64,000 bases of DNA from Betaproteobacteria bacterium (GTDB lineage Bacteria > Pseudomonadota > Gammaproteobacteria > Burkholderiales > Casimicrobiaceae), in contig PLYT01000093.1 of NCBI GenBank assembly GCA_003153475.1, positions 1-64,000 of the forward strand. Reading direction: 5' to 3'. Within the stretch, counting starts at the first letter, position 1, and every line of letters starts with the position of its first letter. This document shows positions 6,500-19,392 of this stretch, in pieces. The notes under the pieces were generated by a model that saw only the letters and a program-made list of their open reading frames with translations, was not told where the DNA came from and ran no database searches. A program made the position numbers and the translations under genes.

Positions 6500-6904
6500 T
6501 CACGGAGCGTTGCCTGGTTCGCCCGGCGCATTGCAGGCGACCAGGTCGACGACGCTGCCTTCGGCGGCAGACGGCACCAGGGCGCCAAGCGTGCGACAGC
6601 GGTCTTTCCAGCAGAGCGTCCAGTCGTCGGTGTACGTCGACTGCGTCAACGGTAACGCCGCGATGGCACGCGGCGGCGGAGTCCACGTCCACCAGCCGCC
6701 GCGCAGCACGGCGCCCTCGGGCGGCTCCATGCCGGCGCCGATGCCCTGAATGCGTGCACCGGTCAACAGCAGGTAATCGCCGGCGATGTGATAGGTCTCC
6801 TCCCAGCGCGTCTTCTCGACCGAATGCTGCCAGGCCAGCATGAATTCGTTCGTTGGCAGTGTGGCACGAACGACTCCGGCGACCAGCAGGCAAACCGCAT
6901 TCAC
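6500..6904 (-). CDS. DUF1850 protein of a TAXI-TRAP transporter operon
   Basis: The 134-residue protein opens with a short hydrophobic signal-like segment and then has features of DUF1850, such as FMLAWQHSVEKTRWEETY and ARIQGIGAGMEPPEGA. DUF1850 genes are known neighbours of fused TRAP permeases, as here, but the molecular role is not established. The GTG start overlaps the permease stop (GTGA). The Nudix gene converges on it with a 7-base gap. Confidence 0.82.
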   Translation of the reverse strand: MNAVCLLVAGVVRATLPTNEFMLAWQHSVEKTRWEETYHIAGDYLLLTGARIQGIGAGMEPPEGAVLRGGWWTWTPPPRAIAALPLTQSTYTDDWTLCWKDRCRTLGALVPSAAEGSVVDLVACNAPGEPGNAP

Positions 6905-8991
6905 GCCTTTTGCGGTAGTGCCCGCGTACGAAACAGATGCCAAACGACGAACGCGGCGCATAGAGCGAAACCCGCCTCGTCGGTCCACGGGATCGCGACC
7001 ACCAGCAGGAACGCGGCGATGGTCACGAATATGCGCTCGCCCCAGTTGAGCGGCGCGCGCAGGTAGCCGATCGAGGCGGCGCCCCACAGAAGGATCGCAA
7101 TGATCGCCTTGAACACGACATACACGGTATCGAGCAGGGTTCCGGACTGGAGCATCAACGACGGATCGTAGACGGCCATATACGGAATCACGAACCCGGC
7201 GATCGCGATGTGCGTCGCTTTCCAGCCGATCTTCATCGGCGAGGCCTTGGCGATCGATGCCGCGGCGAATGCCGCCAGCGCGACCGGTGGCGTCAGGTCG
7301 GCCATGATCCCGAAATAGAAAACGAACATGTGCGAGACGATCAACGGCACCTTCAGCGTGAGCAGTGCGGGTGCCGCGATCGCGCTGGTGATGATGTAGT
7401 TGGGAATGGTCGGTATGCCCATGCCAAGCACTAGGCACACGGCCATCGTCAAAAACAAGGACAGGAACAGGCTTTTCGAGCCGATGTCGAGCACGAACCC
7501 GGCGAAATTCGACGCCGCGCCGGTGAGCGTCAGCACGCCTATGATGACGCCGACGATCGCGCAGGCAATACCGACGGCGATCGCTTGTCGGGCGCCATCG
7601 ATCATGCTGCTCCGCATGATGGCCAAGGTCTTGCGGCCGCCGCGGATGACGAAATTGAGCGCGACCAGAAGGGCGATGGCGACGATCAACGGCCAGATCC
7701 CGTACTTGAAGAAGCTCGCCGTCGCCAGGCCAAGGATCACCCAGAACACGATTCGGAACAACACCGACCCGAAGCCGGCGGCGATGCCGGTGCCGAGGAT
7801 CAGCATCGCCGTCAACGCGAGCCCGACGATGCCGGAGAACATCGGCGTGAAGCCGTCGAACAGCATGAAGACCAGCACGGCGAGTGGCAGCATCAAATAC
7901 CATTTGTCGCGGATTGCCTTCCATGGATTCGGGCAATCGGCCTTGGGCAGGCCGTGCAGGCCTTTGCGCCCGGCCTCCAGGTGCACCATCAGGAACGCCG
8001 TCAGGTAGTAGAGGAATGCCGGGATGACGGCCGCCTTGACAATGGTCACGTAGGGCACGTTAAGTGTCTCGGCCATGATGAACGCGACGGCGCCCATCAC
8101 CGGCGGCATGATCTGGCCCCCCATCGATGAGGTGGCTTCGACGGCGCCGGCAAAAACCGGCGAGTATCCGAATCGCTTCATCAGCGGGATCGTGAACTGC
8201 CCGACGGTCAGCACGTTGGCCACGCCCGAGCCGCTGATCGTACCCATCAGGCCCGACGAGATCACGGCGACCTTGGCCGGACCGCCGCGCGCATGGCCGA
8301 CGAAGCCGAGCGCGATGTTGTTGAACAAGCCGATCATTCCGGCATGCTCGAGGAAGGAGCCGAAGAGGATGAACAGAAATATGTAAGTTGCCGAGACCAG
8401 CGTCGGAATCCCATAGATGCCTTCGCTGCCGAGGTAGAGCTGACCGATGATCTGATCGAAGCCGTAGCCGCGGTGCGCGATCGCCGACGGCAGATACTGA
8501 CCCAGCATGCCATAAGCCAGGAAAGTCGCGCAGACGATAGGCAGCGCGATACCCAGCACGCGCCGCGCCGCCTCGAACAGCAGGACGATCACGATGGCAC
8601 CGACGACCAGGTCGGCAACGGTAGCATCGCCGGAGCGCTGGATCAGATCGGACTCGAACACCCAGTGGTAGAAGGCCAATGCGAAGGCTAGGACGGCGAT
8701 CGCTGCGTCGTACCAGACGATGCGGTCCCTGGCGGCCTTGCGGCCGACCGGGTAGATCAGGAACGCTAGCAGCATCAGGAAACCGACATGCAGCGAGCGC
8801 GTGACCAGACTCGACAGCGGACTGAACGCTGCAATGAATAGCTGGTAGGTCGAAAAGGCCAGCGCGACGCCGCTGACGATCTTCGCCGCGAGCCCGCTCA
8901 GCTCGCGCTTAACGCCGGTTTCGTCGAACGCGGCGTCGGAAGCCGCGTGGATGTTGGGCGTTCCTTTGGGCGCTGCGTCGGGCGCGGCCAT
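6901..8991 (-). CDS. TRAP transporter permease, 4TM/12TM fusion
   Basis: This large membrane protein combines the small (DctQ-like) and large (DctM-like) TRAP permease subunits in 696 residues, with many hydrophobic helices. DctM hallmarks include GFVGHARGGPAKVAVISSGLMG and GMGIPTIPNYII. It uses an ion gradient to import an organic acid delivered by the periplasmic TAXI protein encoded just upstream. I set the start at the ATG at 8991 (MAAPDAAPKG); the ORF-track start lies inside the upstream gene. The substrate is unknown. Confidence 0.93.
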   Translation of the reverse strand: MAAPDAAPKGTPNIHAASDAAFDETGVKRELSGLAAKIVSGVALAFSTYQLFIAAFSPLSSLVTRSLHVGFLMLLAFLIYPVGRKAARDRIVWYDAAIAVLAFALAFYHWVFESDLIQRSGDATVADLVVGAIVIVLLFEAARRVLGIALPIVCATFLAYGMLGQYLPSAIAHRGYGFDQIIGQLYLGSEGIYGIPTLVSATYIFLFILFGSFLEHAGMIGLFNNIALGFVGHARGGPAKVAVISSGLMGTISGSGVANVLTVGQFTIPLMKRFGYSPVFAGAVEATSSMGGQIMPPVMGAVAFIMAETLNVPYVTIVKAAVIPAFLYYLTAFLMVHLEAGRKGLHGLPKADCPNPWKAIRDKWYLMLPLAVLVFMLFDGFTPMFSGIVGLALTAMLILGTGIAAGFGSVLFRIVFWVILGLATASFFKYGIWPLIVAIALLVALNFVIRGGRKTLAIMRSSMIDGARQAIAVGIACAIVGVIIGVLTLTGAASNFAGFVLDIGSKSLFLSLFLTMAVCLVLGMGIPTIPNYIITSAIAAPALLTLKVPLIVSHMFVFYFGIMADLTPPVALAAFAAASIAKASPMKIGWKATHIAIAGFVIPYMAVYDPSLMLQSGTLLDTVYVVFKAIIAILLWGAASIGYLRAPLNWGERIFVTIAAFLLVVAIPWTDEAGFALCAAFVVWHLFRTRALPQKA

Positions 8992-11998: not shown

Positions 11999-12964
11999 CT
12001 AGGGCGCTGGCGCGAAGAATTGTAGCAGGCGGCTCGGCAGCCAATTCATGCCTTCGGGAAACGCCGACGTCGCGAAGCCCGCGTGGCCGCCATGCGCGGG
12101 CTGTTCGAGCGTCACGGCGCGGCTGACCGACTCGGCGCCGGGCAGCGAGGTCCACGGAATGAACGGATCGTTTTTCGCATTGAGCACCAGCGTCGGCACG
12201 GCAATGCCGCCGAGCCACGGCTTGCTGCTGGCGCGGTGCCAGTAATCGCCGACGCCGCGAAAGCCGTGCAGCGGCGCGGTGACGACGTCGTCGAACGTAT
12301 GCATCGACGTCGCCCGGCGTATGGCCGCGGCGTCGAGTGTGCCGGGAAAGCGTTGCGCCATCGCGACCGCTTTCGGCACCAGCGTCGACAGGAAGTGCCG
12401 CGCGTAAATGCGGTTGAAGCCCTGGCCGATCGCCGTGCCGGCCGCGGCCAGATCGAGCGGAGCAGAAACGGCCGCTGCGGCGACCAGGATCGAGCGCGCG
12501 CGCTCCTGCTCGCGTCCGAGCCAGTTGAGCAGCGCGCTTCCGCCAAGCGACACCCCGACCGCATACAACGGCGCTGCGGGCAGGCTCGCCCTGACCGTCG
12601 AGAGCATCCAGCCGATCTCGGCGTAGTCGCCCGAATGGTAGGCGCGCGGCAGGAGGTTCGGCTCGCCGCTGCAGCCGCGAAAATGCGGAACGACGCCACG
12701 CCAGCCTATCGACTGCAAACCGCGCATCAGCGCGCGCGCATAGTGCGACGAGGAATTGCCTTCGAGCCCATGGAACAACACGACCGTCGGCGTGCCCGGT
12801 GACGCGGCATTTCCGTCCTGCCAGTCGAAGTCGACGAAGTCGCCGTCGGGCGTATCGACACGCTCGCGGCGCAAAACGACCGCCGGCGGGCGGAACAGCG
12901 CCGGATAGATCGTTTGCGCATGCGCGCCGGCGAGCCAGCGCGGGGGCAGATAGCCGTCGCTCAT
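11999..12964 (-). CDS. YheT-family alpha/beta hydrolase
   Basis: The 321-residue protein opens with the YheT-type segment LPPRWLAGAHAQTIYPALF and has LFHGLEGNS (oxyanion region), the nucleophile elbow GVSLGGSALLNWLG, the acid segment NAKNDPFIP and the catalytic His in PAHGGHAGF. Family members are predicted lipases or esterases of unknown physiological substrate. Its ATG overlaps the stop of the polyphosphate:AMP phosphotransferase gene (ATGA), so I chose 12964 over the longer track start. Confidence 0.9.
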   Translation of the reverse strand: MSDGYLPPRWLAGAHAQTIYPALFRPPAVVLRRERVDTPDGDFVDFDWQDGNAASPGTPTVVLFHGLEGNSSSHYARALMRGLQSIGWRGVVPHFRGCSGEPNLLPRAYHSGDYAEIGWMLSTVRASLPAAPLYAVGVSLGGSALLNWLGREQERARSILVAAAAVSAPLDLAAAGTAIGQGFNRIYARHFLSTLVPKAVAMAQRFPGTLDAAAIRRATSMHTFDDVVTAPLHGFRGVGDYWHRASSKPWLGGIAVPTLVLNAKNDPFIPWTSLPGAESVSRAVTLEQPAHGGHAGFATSAFPEGMNWLPSRLLQFFAPAP

Positions 12965-14457
12965 TGCTCGAGCGATGATTCGATGCGGTGCACGATCGTC
13001 TTCAGGATCTTGATCCGCGCGTAGTGCTTGTCCTCGGCTTCGACCAGCGTCCAGGGCGCGAGTATCGTGCTGGTGCGGTCGACCATGTCGCATACCGCGA
13101 TCTCATAGTCGTTCCAGCGCTTGCGATTGTGCCAGTCTTCCGGCGTGATCTTGAAGCGCTTGAACGGCGTGTGCTGACGCGCGCGGAAGCGCGTGAGCTG
13201 TTCGGCCTTGCTGATCTGCAGCCAGAACTTGACGATGATGACGCCGCCTTGCGTCAGCTGCTCCTCGAACTGGTTGATCTCGGCGAAGGCTCGCATCCAT
13301 TCGCCCGCGGGGCAAAGCCGCTCGACCCGCTCGACCAGCACGCGTCCGTACCACGATCGATCGAACAGCGTGATGCCGCCGCGCCGCGGGATCTTGCGCC
13401 AGAAGCGCCAAAGGTACGGGTGCGCCAGCTCCTCGTCGGTGGGCGCCGCGACCGGAACCGTCACATACTGGCGCGCATCGAGCGCGCCGGTGACTCGGCG
13501 TATCGCGCCCCCTTTGCCGGCGGCATCGACCCCTTCGAAGGCGACGACCAGCGAACGCTCGCCGAAACGCTTGTGCCGCGACAGCCGGGCGAGCTCGCCC
13601 TGCCATTTCTCGAGCTGCACCGGATAGGCTCGGGCAGACAGTTTTTTCGACAGATCGAGATCGCGAATCAGCTTGACGTTGTCGATCGCCGAGGGCGCCA
13701 CCGGCGTGACCGGATGTTTGGGCTCCTTGGCGCGGGCCGGCTGAACCGGCCGCGCGGTCGCCCGCATCGCATCGAGCAGGATGCGGCCGACGGTCAGGTT
13801 GCGGTAGTGCTCGTCGGTCCCCTCGACCACGTACCATGGCGCCGCGGTGGTCGATGTCTCACGCAGCAGCGTCTCCCACAGTACATAGGACTTGCGATAG
13901 GCGTGGTAAGCCTGCCAATCGTCGTGGCTGACACGCCAGGAAGTGCGCGGATCGCGCTCGAGCGCCTTCAGGCGCTCTTTCTGTTCGGCTTTGGACAGGT
14001 GTATCCAGAACTTGAGCAGCACGACCCCTTCGTCGCTCAACATCTGCTCGTGCTCGCGGATCGCCTGCAAATGCGCTTCGAGGCGATCGTCCTCGATGCG
14101 GCCATGGATCCGCGCGCGCATCGACTCGTTGTACCAGGCGTGCATGAATATGCCGAGCCGGCCGTTGGGTGGCAGCGCCTGCCAGTAGCGCCAGGGTCCG
14201 GGGTGCACCGCTTCCTCGGGTGTGCGCTCGCCGAACGCGACCACCTGGATGTGCCGCGGGTCCATCCACGCGGTCAGCGTGTTAGCCGTCTCTCCACGCC
14301 CGGCGCCGTCGACGCCGGAGACGATGACCAGCACCGGGCCGCGCCGGACTCGCGACAGATCGAATTGCGCGAGCAGCAGCGATTCGCGAAGCCTGGGTTC
14401 TTCCCGGGCGTAGACGTCCTTGGCGACGCGATGGCCGATTTCCGCTGATTCGAGCAT
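12961..14457 (-). CDS. pap: Polyphosphate:AMP phosphotransferase, tandem PPK2 domains
   Basis: The protein has two PPK2 domains in 498 residues, the layout of enzymes that phosphorylate AMP to ADP with inorganic polyphosphate. The C-terminal copy has a normal Walker A (GVDAAGKGG) and the lid and Walker B-type segment TLFDRSWYGRVLVERV. The N-terminal copy has a changed Walker A (GVDGAGRGE, Lys to Arg), as expected for the inactive half of such tandem enzymes. It lies 16 bases after the CYTH-CHAD gene and overlaps the YheT gene by 4 bases. Confidence 0.93.
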   Translation of the reverse strand: MLESAEIGHRVAKDVYAREEPRLRESLLLAQFDLSRVRRGPVLVIVSGVDGAGRGETANTLTAWMDPRHIQVVAFGERTPEEAVHPGPWRYWQALPPNGRLGIFMHAWYNESMRARIHGRIEDDRLEAHLQAIREHEQMLSDEGVVLLKFWIHLSKAEQKERLKALERDPRTSWRVSHDDWQAYHAYRKSYVLWETLLRETSTTAAPWYVVEGTDEHYRNLTVGRILLDAMRATARPVQPARAKEPKHPVTPVAPSAIDNVKLIRDLDLSKKLSARAYPVQLEKWQGELARLSRHKRFGERSLVVAFEGVDAAGKGGAIRRVTGALDARQYVTVPVAAPTDEELAHPYLWRFWRKIPRRGGITLFDRSWYGRVLVERVERLCPAGEWMRAFAEINQFEEQLTQGGVIIVKFWLQISKAEQLTRFRARQHTPFKRFKITPEDWHNRKRWNDYEIAVCDMVDRTSTILAPWTLVEAEDKHYARIKILKTIVHRIESSLEQ

Positions 14458-14473: not shown

Positions 14474-15988
14474 CTAGGTCCAGAAACGCTTGGTCTTGGC
14501 GAATTGTCGCCAGGACTTGGGCAAGCGTTCGAGCTCGCGCGCGCTCATCGATGCCGTCCAGCCGCGGACGATGCCGGCGGCGTGCGATAGCTCGGCATCG
14601 TTCCTGACCGGTGCCATGAGCTCGTCGAGCAGACGCGCTGCCGCCGCCATGTCGTTCAGATTCCCGAGCGTGCCCTGCAGCGCCGAAAGCGCGTCGATGT
14701 AGTCGTTGGCGCCGGCACGGCGAAACAGCGGCGCAAAAAACTCGGCGGCGTAGCGCAATTTTTTCGCCGCGACTCGCACGCGGTGCCTCCCGGCCGCGTC
14801 GGCTTGGCGAAGACGCTTGCCGCGTTTTCGCAGCCGCCGCTCGCTCCTGTCCAGCGAAGCGCGAGCCAGAACGGTCGCCGCCGGATCGGGTGCGGCAAGC
14901 TCGAGGCCGGCGCAGAACCTGCCCAGGGCCAGCAGCAGGCAGCTGAAGCGCTGCGACCCGGCCTCGGATTGCGCTTCCAGGCGAAGGAGGCGCCGCTTGC
15001 GGGCAGCGCGCAATCGCAGGCGACCGAAGGCGCGCAGCTCTTTATCGTGAAGATGCGGGGCGACCGCTGCCAGCGTACCGGAGGCAAACACGTCCCAATC
15101 GCGCGCCGGACCGAAGACTTCGCCCAGTGCGGCCAGACCGCTGTCGAGCGAGGCGGCTTCGGCTGCGCCCGGCGCGCCTGCGGCGAGCTTCAACAGCGAG
15201 CGCATGCGTCGGACCCCGACGCGGAGCTGGTGCAGGAATTCGCCGTCCCGCCCGTCGCGCAGGACTTCCGCGTTGCCGCCGATCTGGGCAAGACAATCGA
15301 TCGCGATCGCCGCCAGCGCGTGCGGAGCGGCGACGTCGAGCGAGAGCGCAACCTTGCCCGCGCGCACCGGGCGCGCCGGCCGCGATCGCGCCAGCGCGTA
15401 GCCCCGCTCGGCCTTGCTCGCGTGGGCGAGCGTCAGCGGAATGTCGGCACAGAGTGCCAGCGCCAGGTCGTAGAGGCGCCGGGCATCGCCTTCGACCAAC
15501 TCGATTTCGATTTCGCACAGCGGCGAACGCTTGCGGCCGGCTCGGACGGCGCCGCGATCGAACGACAAGGTGGCACGCGTCCCGTCGGCGAATTTCAGTG
15601 CGCGCTCGGTGCGCGTGATCTCGGTCGTGAAAACCGGCGCGAGCCGCGCCGAGGTGTCGGCAAACAGCGTGGCCCAGGGGGTTTCGGCCAGCTTGCCAGG
15701 ATCGAGGCGCGGGCGCAGCAGCGGCCACTCGTATTCGGTGCGTCGGTGCATCCCCGCGGCCGCGTCGCCGCTGCCCTTGACCGTCTGCAACCAGCTGGCG
15801 CCGCGTCGACGCAGCCGCAGCGCGACGCCGCGCTCGAAGAGCTCGCTGGTCGGCGTGTCGTAATAGCGACTGACGATCGACGTCGAGCGGGCGCGGCCTG
15901 CGTTCGCCTCGATCAGCGCCCGATGCCGGCGCACGGCGGCGAATGCGCCGGGCGCGGCCGATAGCTTGAGTTCGACCTCGGTAGGCAT
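14474..15988 (-). CDS. CYTH and CHAD domain protein
   Basis: The N-terminal CYTH (triphosphate tunnel) domain begins with the signature EVELK at residue 4. The C-terminal CHAD domain has the conserved basic helices HQLRVGVRRMRSLLKL and HRVRVAAKKLRYAAEFF. CHAD domains bind inorganic polyphosphate, and CYTH domains act on triphosphates. I chose the ATG at 15988 (504 residues) because it places the EVELK motif at the very start. It sits between the DAHP-synthase homologue (16-base gap) and pap, consistent with a polyphosphate role. Confidence 0.92.
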   Translation of the reverse strand: MPTEVELKLSAAPGAFAAVRRHRALIEANAGRARSTSIVSRYYDTPTSELFERGVALRLRRRGASWLQTVKGSGDAAAGMHRRTEYEWPLLRPRLDPGKLAETPWATLFADTSARLAPVFTTEITRTERALKFADGTRATLSFDRGAVRAGRKRSPLCEIEIELVEGDARRLYDLALALCADIPLTLAHASKAERGYALARSRPARPVRAGKVALSLDVAAPHALAAIAIDCLAQIGGNAEVLRDGRDGEFLHQLRVGVRRMRSLLKLAAGAPGAAEAASLDSGLAALGEVFGPARDWDVFASGTLAAVAPHLHDKELRAFGRLRLRAARKRRLLRLEAQSEAGSQRFSCLLLALGRFCAGLELAAPDPAATVLARASLDRSERRLRKRGKRLRQADAAGRHRVRVAAKKLRYAAEFFAPLFRRAGANDYIDALSALQGTLGNLNDMAAAARLLDELMAPVRNDAELSHAAGIVRGWTASMSARELERLPKSWRQFAKTKRFWT

Positions 15989-16004: not shown

Positions 16005-17126
16005 CTAGTGCGGTCGGTGGCTTGCCGCCAGCGCCGCGCGTTTGACGTAGGCTTCTCGCGCGACGGCGACATCCTCCAGAAAGTGCGGCAGCTCGGACAG
16101 CAAAAGCGCCTGCGGCCCGTCGACCAGCGCTTTCGCCGGATCCGGGTGGAAGTCGACCAGCACCATGTTCGCACCCGCGACGACGCCCTGGGCGACGACG
16201 TGGAAAATATCGAGGATGCCGTCGGGCGCGATCGCCCGCGTTCCCACCGAGTGGGACGGGTCGATGCACACCGGCATCCGGGTCAGCCGCTTGACCACCG
16301 GAACATGCGAGAAGTCGACGAAATTTCGATGCGGGTCGCCCATGTTGGTCTTCATCCCGCGCAAGCCGAACACGACCTTGCGATTACCTTCAGACGCCAG
16401 ATATTCGGCGGCGTTCAGTGATTCGTCGAGGGTGATACCGAAGCCCCGCTTGATCAGCACCGGAAATTCCTGCTGCTTGCCGACCAGCTTCAGAAGCTCG
16501 AAATTCTGCGTGTTGCGCGTGCCTATCTGCAGCATGATCCCGGTCGGGTTGCCGGTCGACTTGAGCGCCGCGCGGATCTCGTCGACGTGCGATTCGTGCG
16601 TGACCTCCATCGCGATGACGCGAATGCCGTACTTGCCGGCGAGCTCGAAGACGTACGGCAGGCACTTGGCGCCGAAGCCCTGGAACGCGTACGGGTTGGT
16701 CCGCGGCTTGTACGCGCCCATGCGCGTGCAGACCTGACCGTGACGCTGCAGCGCTTGCATCATCATGCCGGCCGACTCCGGAGAATCGACGGCGCACAGG
16801 CCCGCGAATACGTTCAGCGTGTCCTGGCCGAAGCGCACGCCGTTGTAGTCGAACGATGCGGGCCGGTCGTCGCCCTGCTGGTGCCGGCCGAGGACGCGAT
16901 ACGCTTCCGAGACGCGGACGACTTTTTGCACGCTGGGCAGGACTTGCATCTGCTCGACGGTCAGCGCCGCGGTGTTGCCGATCAGATAGATCTCGGTCAG
17001 CGTGACCTCGGCGCCGACTTCGCGATGGACGCGATATTGGATGCCCGGAAGACGGTCGAGTTGTCCCGCCAGCGTGCGGTAATCGGGGCTTTCGGGGCTG
17101 GTGTTGGGTTCCAGGATCAGGATCAT
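16005..17126 (-). CDS. DAHP synthase-like enzyme (AroA-I-beta type) with N-terminal ferredoxin-like domain
   Basis: The fold is that of 3-deoxy-7-phosphoheptulonate synthases of the Thermotoga/Bacillus type, which join PEP and erythrose 4-phosphate at the entry to the shikimate pathway. An N-terminal regulatory-like domain spans roughly residues 1-80, followed by the barrel with GAYKPRTNPYAFQG, IGTRNTQNF, LIKRGFG and DPSHSVGTR. Two core motifs differ from the usual form: AGLCAVD replaces AGPCSVE, and VDFHPDP replaces VEVHPEP, so the metal-ligand Glu is Asp. The Cys, His and final Asp ligands are kept. It may be a DAHP synthase or a related aldolase. Confidence 0.8.
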   Translation of the reverse strand: MILILEPNTSPESPDYRTLAGQLDRLPGIQYRVHREVGAEVTLTEIYLIGNTAALTVEQMQVLPSVQKVVRVSEAYRVLGRHQQGDDRPASFDYNGVRFGQDTLNVFAGLCAVDSPESAGMMMQALQRHGQVCTRMGAYKPRTNPYAFQGFGAKCLPYVFELAGKYGIRVIAMEVTHESHVDEIRAALKSTGNPTGIMLQIGTRNTQNFELLKLVGKQQEFPVLIKRGFGITLDESLNAAEYLASEGNRKVVFGLRGMKTNMGDPHRNFVDFSHVPVVKRLTRMPVCIDPSHSVGTRAIAPDGILDIFHVVAQGVVAGANMVLVDFHPDPAKALVDGPQALLLSELPHFLEDVAVAREAYVKRAALAASHRPH

Positions 17127-17258
17127 GGCGACGGTCGCACGTGGGTTTTTCGTTGAAATTCATTCATTTGGCTCATTCTAGTCCGAAATGGCCAGCCGCG
17201 ATGCTGCAGTGCGGTAGCGAAATATGCCACACGCTGACCGCCCGCCCGCGCGAAATCG

Positions 17259-17288
17259 TTGCGAGCCGCGTTCCGGATGCCGTAGACT
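17259..17288 (+). promoter_or_regulatory. Possible sigma-70 promoter for the first psiF gene
   Basis: TTGCGA and TAGACT are separated by 18 bases and end 54 bases before the start codon. Both boxes are imperfect, so this is tentative. Confidence 0.3.
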
Positions 17289-17342
17289 GGCCGCGAAAGT
17301 TCCAGCACTGGTCCCCGACACTGCCCCAGGAGGCCCGACGAC

Positions 17343-17648
17343 ATGAAAACCCTAATCGCTCTGACGCTGGCAGGATTATTCGCCTGCGGCACCGCCTTTG
17401 CCGCGGACACCAAAGCCGCGGACACCAAAGCCGCCGACACCAAAATGACGCCGCAGCAGGAGAAGATGACGTCCTGCAATGCCGAAGCGACCGGCAAGAC
17501 CGGCGACGAGCGCAAGGCGTTCATGAAGACCTGTCTTTCGGCCAAGCCTGAGAAGAAGGAAAGCAAGATGGCGATGTGCAACAAGAAAACTGCCGGCATG
17601 AAGGCCGATGAGCGTGCGAAAGCGCAGAGCGAGTGCATGAAGGGCTAG
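17343..17648 (+). CDS. PsiF-repeat periplasmic protein
   Basis: The 101-residue protein has a signal peptide ending AFA, then two PsiF-type repeats: KMTSCNAEATGKTGDERKAF and KMAMCNKKTAGMKADERAKA, each with a Cys pair spaced for a disulfide. E. coli psiF is phosphate-starvation inducible, but the molecular function is unknown. A 15-base unit coding for ADTKA is repeated three times right after the signal peptide. AGGAGG precedes the ATG, and a strong terminator follows. Confidence 0.9.
   Translation: MKTLIALTLAGLFACGTAFAADTKAADTKAADTKMTPQQEKMTSCNAEATGKTGDERKAFMKTCLSAKPEKKESKMAMCNKKTAGMKADERAKAQSECMKG
17400..17444 (+). repeat. Three tandem 15-bp units inside the first psiF gene
   Basis: The unit gccgcggacaccaaa occurs three times in frame (third copy with one base change), coding for AADTK repeats at the mature N-terminus. 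The near-identity suggests recent slippage. Confidence 0.9.
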
Positions 17649-17701
17649 CAAGGTTTGCCAAACTCGGCCGGGTGACCCTCCTGTCCATCCGGCCGTACTG
17701 A

Positions 17702-17740
17702 CAAGGCGGCGCCGGGGCAATCCGGTCGCCGCCTTGTTTT
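17702..17740 (+). terminator. Intrinsic terminator after the first psiF gene
   Basis: CAAGGCGGCG and CGCCGCCTTG form a perfect 10-bp stem with a 15-base loop, followed by TTTT. It begins 54 bases after the psiF stop codon. Confidence 0.85.
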
Positions 17741-17863
17741 ATCCCCCGCTCGACCGCGTGCATCGGCCATTCGTACGATGTACCCCGCGCCGACCCGAGC
17801 GTTAATGGAAACGTGGCCGATACCGGTCCACGCACCTTCCAACCACGCTTCGAGGAGATCGCC

Positions 17864-18127
17864 ATGAAATCGCTTTATTTCGCCGCCCTGATCGGCCTGT
17901 TCGCCTGCCAGGTCGTTTATGCCGCCGATGGCACCGCCGCACCCAAGGCAAAGACGCAGTCGGCCGGAAAGATTGCCGACACCAGCACGCCAGCCGGTCA
18001 GGCGACCAAGCCGATTGCGATGTCGCAGCAGGACCGGATGCGGATGTGCAGCAAGCAGGCGACCGGCAAGAAGGGCGCGGAGCGCAAGACGTTCATGAAA
18101 TCCTGTCTGACGACCCGTAAATCGTAG
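17864..18127 (+). CDS. Second PsiF-repeat periplasmic protein
   Basis: The 87-residue protein has a signal peptide (LIGLFACQVVYA) and one clear PsiF repeat, DRMRMCSKQATGKKGAERKT, with its Cys pair. It is a paralogue of the gene just upstream but has one repeat rather than two, and a longer linker. I chose the ATG at 17864, which has GAGGAG about nine bases upstream, over the track start at 17813. A terminator separates the two genes, so each may have its own promoter. Confidence 0.88.
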   Translation: MKSLYFAALIGLFACQVVYAADGTAAPKAKTQSAGKIADTSTPAGQATKPIAMSQQDRMRMCSKQATGKKGAERKTFMKSCLTTRKS

Positions 18128-18135
18128 AGCATGTG

Positions 18136-18176
18136 GCGCAGGCAGGGCGGAGGTTCGCCGTGCTGCCTGCGCCTTT
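18136..18176 (+). terminator. Hairpin terminator after the second psiF gene
   Basis: GCGCAGGCAG and CTGCCTGCGC form a perfect 10-bp stem starting 8 bases after the stop codon, followed by CTTT. The U-tract is short. Confidence 0.6.
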
Positions 18177-18207
18177 CGCCGGGTGGCGGCGCCACACCGG
18201 CAGTCTT

Positions 18208-19392
18208 TCATGCCTTCTTGCGAACGAGCAGGCCCTTCAGGTAATCGCCTTCGGGAAATTCGAGCGCGACCGGATGGTCGGCGCTCGCCGAAAAGCGGCC
18301 GATGATCGCCGCATCCGCGCCTGCATCCAGCGCGGCACCGGCGACGATCTTCTGGAACAAGTCCGCCGTAACCCCGCCCGAGCATGAGAATGTCGCCAGC
18401 AGGCCGCCGGGGCGCAACAGCTTCAGCGCGAGCAGGTTGATGTCCTTGTACGCGCGCGCCGCCTTGTCGATGTGGCGCGCCGTCGGCGCGAACTTCGGCG
18501 GGTCGAGCACGATCATGTCGAAGCTCTTCGCGCCGTCGCGAATCTTGCGCAATTCGGCGAACACATCGGCGTCTCGCCATTCGCAGCGCGCGTCATCGAT
18601 CCCGTTCTGCGCAACGTTCTGGCGTGCCCGCGTCAGCGCGTCGGCCGAGCTGTCGATCGCGAGCACCGAGCGTGCGCCGCCGGCCAGCGCGGCGACGGTA
18701 AAGCCTCCGGTATAGCAAAAGCAGTCCAGCACGTCGCGCCCCGCGGCGACCGCGCGGATGCGATGTCGGTTTTGCCGTTGGTCGAGAAAGAACCCGGTCT
18801 TCTGGCCGGCGATGACATCGATGTCGTAGCGCAGGCCATCCTCCAGCAGGATAATGCGCGCGGGCAGGACGCCGGCCGCGATGCCGGTGCGCGAGGGCAT
18901 GCCTTCGAGCGCTCGCACCTCTGCGTCGGAGCGTTCGTAGACGGCCGCGCAGCCCGTCGCTTCGACGAGCGCGCTGACGATACTGCCGCGCCAGGCCTCG
19001 CCGCCCGCACTGTGCAACTGCATGACGACGACTTCGCCGTAGCGGTCGGCGATGACGCCGGGCAGACCGTCCGATTCGGCATGCACCAGCCGGCATCCGG
19101 TATGCGTAGCGTCGAGCATCGGCGCGCGTGCCGCGACGGCGGCGCGCACGCGGCCAGCGATGAATGCATCGTCGATCGCCTGGCGCGCATCGAAGCTCCA
19201 TATGCGTGCCCGGATCGCCGAGGCGGGACTCCAGGCTGCGCTTGCCAGGAATGCGCCGTCGGCGGAGTAGATCGCGACGGTCTCGCCCGCGGCGGGTGCG
19301 CCTTCGACCGCGGCGATGGCACCCGAGAAGACCCAAGGGTGCTTCTGTCGGAGCGACTTTTCCCGTCCGGGCTGCAGCGTGACCCGATGCAC
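18208..19392 (-). CDS. rlmI: 23S rRNA m5C methyltransferase, RlmI family
   Basis: The 394-residue protein has an N-terminal PUA-like domain (GREKSLRQKHPWVFSGAI), a linker, and a SAM-dependent methyltransferase domain with LDCFCYTGGFTVAA (motif I) and the catalytic motif IVLDPPKFAPT. E. coli RlmI methylates C1962 of 23S rRNA. The start in the track is a GTG at 19392. The gene stands alone between the psiF genes and the VIT1-type transporter, which is 15 bases upstream in the same direction. Confidence 0.92.
   Translation of the reverse strand: MHRVTLQPGREKSLRQKHPWVFSGAIAAVEGAPAAGETVAIYSADGAFLASAAWSPASAIRARIWSFDARQAIDDAFIAGRVRAAVAARAPMLDATHTGCRLVHAESDGLPGVIADRYGEVVVMQLHSAGGEAWRGSIVSALVEATGCAAVYERSDAEVRALEGMPSRTGIAAGVLPARIILLEDGLRYDIDVIAGQKTGFFLDQRQNRHRIRAVAAGRDVLDCFCYTGGFTVAALAGGARSVLAIDSSADALTRARQNVAQNGIDDARCEWRDADVFAELRKIRDGAKSFDMIVLDPPKFAPTARHIDKAARAYKDINLLALKLLRPGGLLATFSCSGGVTADLFQKIVAGAALDAGADAAIIGRFSASADHPVALEFPEGDYLKGLLVRKKA

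Follow-up and report, generated by a model that had tools for sequence, protein, structure and literature searches.

A widespread clade of predicted DAHP synthases with a remodelled metal site in Gammaproteobacteria

We analysed a window of 64,000 nucleotides (the whole stretch taken from contig PLYT01000093.1 of a Betaproteobacteria bacterium, in whose positions all coordinates are given) and focused on a gene at 16005..17126 on the minus strand (17126→16005), which encodes a divergent, type Iβ-related DAHP synthase homologue of 373 aa. The product combines an N-terminal ferredoxin-like (FXD) domain (residues ~1–74) with a (β/α)8 barrel (residues ~96–351), and matched both DAHP_synth_1 (PF00793; 150.7 bits, E = 4.9e-44, cut-off 25.5) and DAHP_snth_FXD (PF18152; 29.5 bits, cut-off 27) in Pfam, the latter being a ferredoxin-like regulatory domain that is a feature of a subset of type Iβ. 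No match to PF01474 (type II DAHP synthase) was detected in the protein. The Pfam matches confirm the original prediction of a DAHP synthase family member with an Iβ-like barrel and a ferredoxin-like domain. Several minus-strand motifs set the protein apart, including AGLCAVD for the canonical AGPCSVE (residues 108–114, 16785..16805), which contains the metal ligand Cys111, and Asp325 at the position of a metal-ligand Glu (VDFHP for VEVHP; 16152..16154). The stretch RMGAYKPRTN (residues 135–144, 16695..16724) keeps the PEP-contacting R135 and K140 and the E4P-contacting R142 and T143, and the metal ligands His292 (DPSH; 16251..16253) and Asp336 (ALVDGPQ; 16119..16121) are likewise present. When aligned with the DAHP synthases of T. 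maritima and P. furiosus, the equivalent of VEVHPEP reads VDFHPDP, and Cys111, His292, and Asp336 fall on the remaining metal ligands, so that the altered motif and the Glu-to-Asp change, with the Cys, His, and last Asp ligands kept, are as originally described.

The gene lies 16 nt upstream of a CYTH-CHAD protein gene (14474..15988, ATG at 15988, minus strand), which is followed by a polyphosphate:AMP phosphotransferase of the PPK2 class (12961..14457, minus strand; TIGR03708, 682 bits) and, further downstream on the same strand, by an α/β hydrolase and a phosphoglucomutase/phosphomannomutase. This non-aromatic context had been correctly anticipated. Two tandem small genes of the PsiF-repeat (phosphate-starvation-inducible) family (17343–17648 and 17813–18127, plus strand) are transcribed away from the DAHP synthase gene, in the vicinity of the polyphosphate genes; the minus-strand frames in that upstream region (17123–17638 and 17645–18580), which have no family matches, were rejected in favour of these plus-strand genes. 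We noted no conspicuous promoter, terminator, or RNA family in the surroundings of the gene. We then compared 116 related loci and found CYTH-CHAD in 5 and PPK2 in 3, all from close relatives, while other neighbours depended on lineage, including ispH downstream (29/116), aguA and aguB upstream (22/116 and 26/116), the hydrolase and PgmG (17/116 and 12/116), mfd, slmA, acetate–CoA ligase, and more. Candidates for a conserved operon partner (ispH, aguA/aguB, the hydrolase, mfd, and slmA) were each limited to some lineages across these loci and were discarded, and we therefore drew no functional link to the neighbours. In many gamma lineages, aguB (N-carbamoylputrescine amidase) sits directly upstream on the same strand, often after aguA (agmatine deiminase); loci with this arrangement include L144, L146, L157, L163, L165, L166, L172, L174, and L182.

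We further compared the protein with an assayed Iβ enzyme, in which the metal ligands are C36/H206/E232/D243, the PEP residues R60, K65, S119, R120, K141, and R171, and the E4P residues R67, T68, and D243 (PMC6362186). The alignment places C111/H292/D325/D336 at the metal ligands, R135, K140, T203, R204, K226, and R256 at the PEP positions, and R142, T143, and D336 at the E4P positions of the window protein. The S119/T203 position is variable among proven enzymes too, being Ala or Glu (PMC6362186), and besides it the Glu ligand is the sole change among the listed positions. Where DAHP synthases can be told apart from KDO8P synthases (R135, R204, and KPRT), the clade to which the protein belongs is DAHP-type. 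The marks of KDO8P synthases (KANR[ST], the Lys135 and Phe204 equivalents, and DATHSVQ) were not found in the window protein; KdsA, which is PEP-dependent and shares the barrel superfamily, carries KANR[ST], Lys at 135, and Phe at 204, whereas the clade has KPRT, Arg, and Arg.

Structural comparison pointed to the same family. The AlphaFold2 model (mean pLDDT 81, pTM 0.73) adopts the expected two-domain fold, its best Foldseek matches are the T. maritima and chimeric Iβ DAHP synthases (1rzm, E = 5.7e-27), and its barrel superposes on 1zco with a TM score of 0.86; by sequence, the closest solved proteins are the Iβ DAHP synthases 4grs and 1rzm. Since the loops at 143–149 and 258–269, which adjoin active-site residues, were modelled with low confidence, we left the metal geometry uninterpreted. 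With the type Iβ enzymes of T. maritima (1rzm/1vr6) and P. furiosus (1zco), the protein shares the ferredoxin-like domain and (β/α)8 barrel, the Cys, His, and Asp ligands, and the PEP- and E4P-contacting residues (RGGA[FY]KPRT, G[AST]R, K, and R). It differs from them in its identity of only ~32–37%, in the long and separate stem of its clade, in the Glu-to-Asp ligand change together with AGPCSVE → AGLCAVD and CERGIRTF → LRGMKTNMGDPHRN, and in insertions near residues 189–196 and 300–306. It also falls under the PRK08673 and TIGR01361 cut-offs (206.1 versus 267.75 for the latter); indeed, every NCBIfam DAHP synthase model that matched the protein scored under its cut-off, and the same five NCBIfam models were matched by all 54 members of alignment A1. 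Type Iα enzymes (AroFGH, TIGR00034) belong to the same superfamily and share the predicted reaction and the compared PEP and E4P residues, but they are separated from the clade by very long branches in the tree, their model has no match to the protein at E 0.001, and they carry Glu at the ligand position (34/34) where the clade has Asp. The tree placement proposed with the original prediction, run with 41 rows, recovered a monophyletic clade (100/99) with a stem of ~2.6 changes per site, which grouped with Iβ rather than with KDO8P synthases at weak support (81/71); the monophyly of Iβ itself reached only 45/0, so the clade could be either sister to Iβ or nested within it.

A scan of bacterial genomes revealed at least 576 relatives, of which the top 80 show 74–88% identity and belong to Beta- and Gammaproteobacteria, including Nitrosomonas, Nitrosospira, Gallionellaceae, Nitrotoga, Sulfuricella, and Thiogranum. 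In a sample of 370 genomes from Gammaproteobacteria (with the beta lineages counted in), 117 carry one orthologue each, with 56–78% identity outside the window's own genome, and all eight matches in a phylum sample of 398 genomes belonged to the Gammaproteobacteria class. Plasmid records (n = 11) carried only homologues of <60% identity (best, 38.5%). Among 160 orthologous loci, which were picked by similarity and not by motif and include a few genes fetched twice, L110, C111, A112, R135, K140, R142, R204, K226, R256, H292, D325, and D336 were invariant, and residue 143 was T in 157 and S in 3. By comparison, the canonical homologues (20 Iβ, 34 Iα, and 26 KDO8P synthases) had Pro at the 110 column and Glu at the 325 column in 80 of 80 cases. 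Because Leu110 and Asp325 are invariant throughout the 160 loci, the altered residues are neither errors nor chance; at the level of sequence they define a clade, whose divalent metal site is remodelled from Cys/His/Glu/Asp to Cys/His/Asp/Asp, accompanied by Pro→Leu and Ser→Ala in the residues flanking the Cys. By its own statement, the original prediction would be refuted if proven DAHP synthases of the clade commonly carried the changed residues; genomically these are universal in the clade, and biochemically no member has been proven by assay. Our literature searches nowhere found the clade described as a separate group.

Whether carriers depend on this protein for DAHP was approached through their other DAHP synthases. 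A canonical enzyme elsewhere in the genome, proposed earlier as a check, was indeed present: the window genome, at 73.6% completeness, additionally encodes two Iβ DAHP synthases of the canonical kind (L001 and L002), and it gave no PF01474 match. Neither these two genes nor the minus strand of the studied gene had featured in the original prediction. All 22 carrier genomes behind the named loci encode at least one further PF00793 protein, which by motif or score is a canonical DAHP synthase in 21; the exception is G051, where the additional match is an untyped fragment at a contig edge. The class sample of 370 genomes contained 21 carriers with two or fewer PF00793 matches, and these, together with G014, formed a set of 22 that we typed by motif. 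Only three of them encode a canonical DAHP synthase (G154, Iα; G231 and G336, Iβ), and type II enzymes are absent from all 22. In the remaining 19, the companion PF00793 protein is a KDO8P synthase (KANR[ST]/DATHSVQ; absent in G330), and aroB scored above its curated cut-off in 19/19. Missing sequence is an unlikely cause of this sole-candidate state, because these 19 genomes are 92–100% complete and the state recurs within families (three genomes in f99, four in f112, three in f105, and two each in f109 and f145). AroB consumes DAHP, and the altered protein is therefore the best candidate for DAHP supply in these 19 genomes. A limit on this argument comes from 25 non-carriers that have one PF00793 match or none and were screened for the type II enzyme alone: it is absent in 14 of them (G102, G131, G137, G221, G275, G302, G329, G355, G363, G386, G165, G267, G398, and G341), which may be either aromatic auxotrophs or further gaps.

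These results suggest that the clade very probably consists of functional DAHP synthases. They would form a subclass related to but diverged from Iβ, in which the metal site is remodelled, and would act as isozymes where a canonical enzyme coexists. In the comparison of DAHP synthases in PMC6362186, the metal ligands are reported to be fully conserved, and Asp could therefore impair or alter catalysis; moreover, the number of other PF00793 proteins in most sampled carriers leaves room for a canonical DAHP synthase, and the function of the protein could differ there. The original prediction raised a shifted substrate; in that case a neofunctionalised paralogue would condense PEP with another aldose phosphate into a different 3-deoxy-2-ulosonate. 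Such a shift would fit the altered metal ligand and flanking residues, the stem of ~2.6 changes per site, the lack of a conserved aromatic operon, and the canonical enzymes that coexist in the window genome and in 21 of the 22 carriers behind the named loci. It is nevertheless improbable, as the E4P-contacting R142/T143 and all PEP residues are kept (R135, K140, R142, T143, R204, K226, R256, H292, and D336 being retained) and 19 aroB-positive genomes would be left without a DAHP synthase. That the protein is the only candidate in many bacteria argues that the odd residues mark a working subclass and not a new substrate. The same two lines of evidence bear on a paralogue that has lost catalysis and persists as a regulatory subunit or metabolite sensor: the changed metal ligand, the conserved ferredoxin-like domain, and the other isozymes in many species would suit this role, but all other catalytic and substrate residues are invariant and the protein stands alone in the 19 aroB-positive genomes, which makes it very unlikely.

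Joint function or regulation with polyphosphate metabolism, also raised in the original prediction, draws on the short gap to CYTH-CHAD and the PPK2 gene that follows on the same strand; as this neighbourhood is limited to the closest relatives and gives way elsewhere to aguA-aguB, ispH, mfd, slmA, and others, we consider such a link slightly less likely still. The least likely reading, to which we give almost no credence, is a KDO8P synthase or its substitute. Membership of the same superfamily and the lack of a KDO8P synthase among the PF00793 matches of several Nitrosomonas and Nitrosospira carriers speak for it, but R135 is not K, R204 is not F, KPRT is not KANR, the Nitrosomonas and Nitrosospira genomes in question also lack the KDO transferase WaaA, and a true KDO8P synthase is present in other carriers. 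A role in the KDO pathway was therefore rejected on the absence of both WaaA and KDO8P-type residues.

Returning to the preferred reading of a working DAHP synthase, the sole-candidate status in aroB-positive genomes suggests that clade members would produce DAHP, and by analogy the ferredoxin-like domain may allow an aromatic amino acid to exert feedback control. Where a second DAHP synthase is present, as in the species of the window, the protein might by the same analogy serve as a differently regulated isozyme, and Asp325 may influence the choice of metal. A bolder and rather doubtful extension is that the clade forms a third type I subclass, whose Cys/His/Asp/Asp centre (with Pro→Leu, Ser→Ala, a nearly invariant His177, and an invariant Cys155) would confer a different metal preference or redox tolerance and, alongside a canonical isozyme, possibly acceptance of a second aldose. 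The clade is a real variant of a known enzyme and not a new kind of enzyme.

Overall, as judged from its predicted activity, the clade would represent a form of the first enzyme of aromatic amino acid synthesis that is widespread yet has been overlooked. Annotation models miss it at their cut-offs, and its recognition would therefore close apparent gaps in aromatic synthesis in many Gammaproteobacteria. A widespread clade with one metal ligand changed, which seems to be the sole pathway entry in some species, also offers a natural test of how variable this site can be. The Iβ subclass has been described as not usually seen in Gram-negative bacteria (PMC1173090), a statement that needs revision, given that both canonical Iβ enzymes and the clade occur in many of the genomes searched here.

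Several observations accompany these results. KDO8P synthase (among PF00793 matches) and WaaA are both missing from the genomes of L020, L038, L040, L043, and L055 (G031–G035) and from G049 and G050. An almost complete lack of Kdo2-lipid A genes has been reported for N. europaea (PMC3087551), in agreement with the Nitrosomonas and Nitrosospira genomes here. The orthologue match of L145, from the sole-candidate genome G248, starts only at residue 89, and the ferredoxin-like domain at its N-terminus seems to have been lost, to have diverged strongly, or to be disrupted by a frameshift. In favour of the DAHP synthase reading, the gene in G026 (L179) immediately precedes one for a type Iα DAHP synthase (6755–7843; TIGR00034, 463 bits), head to tail on the same strand.
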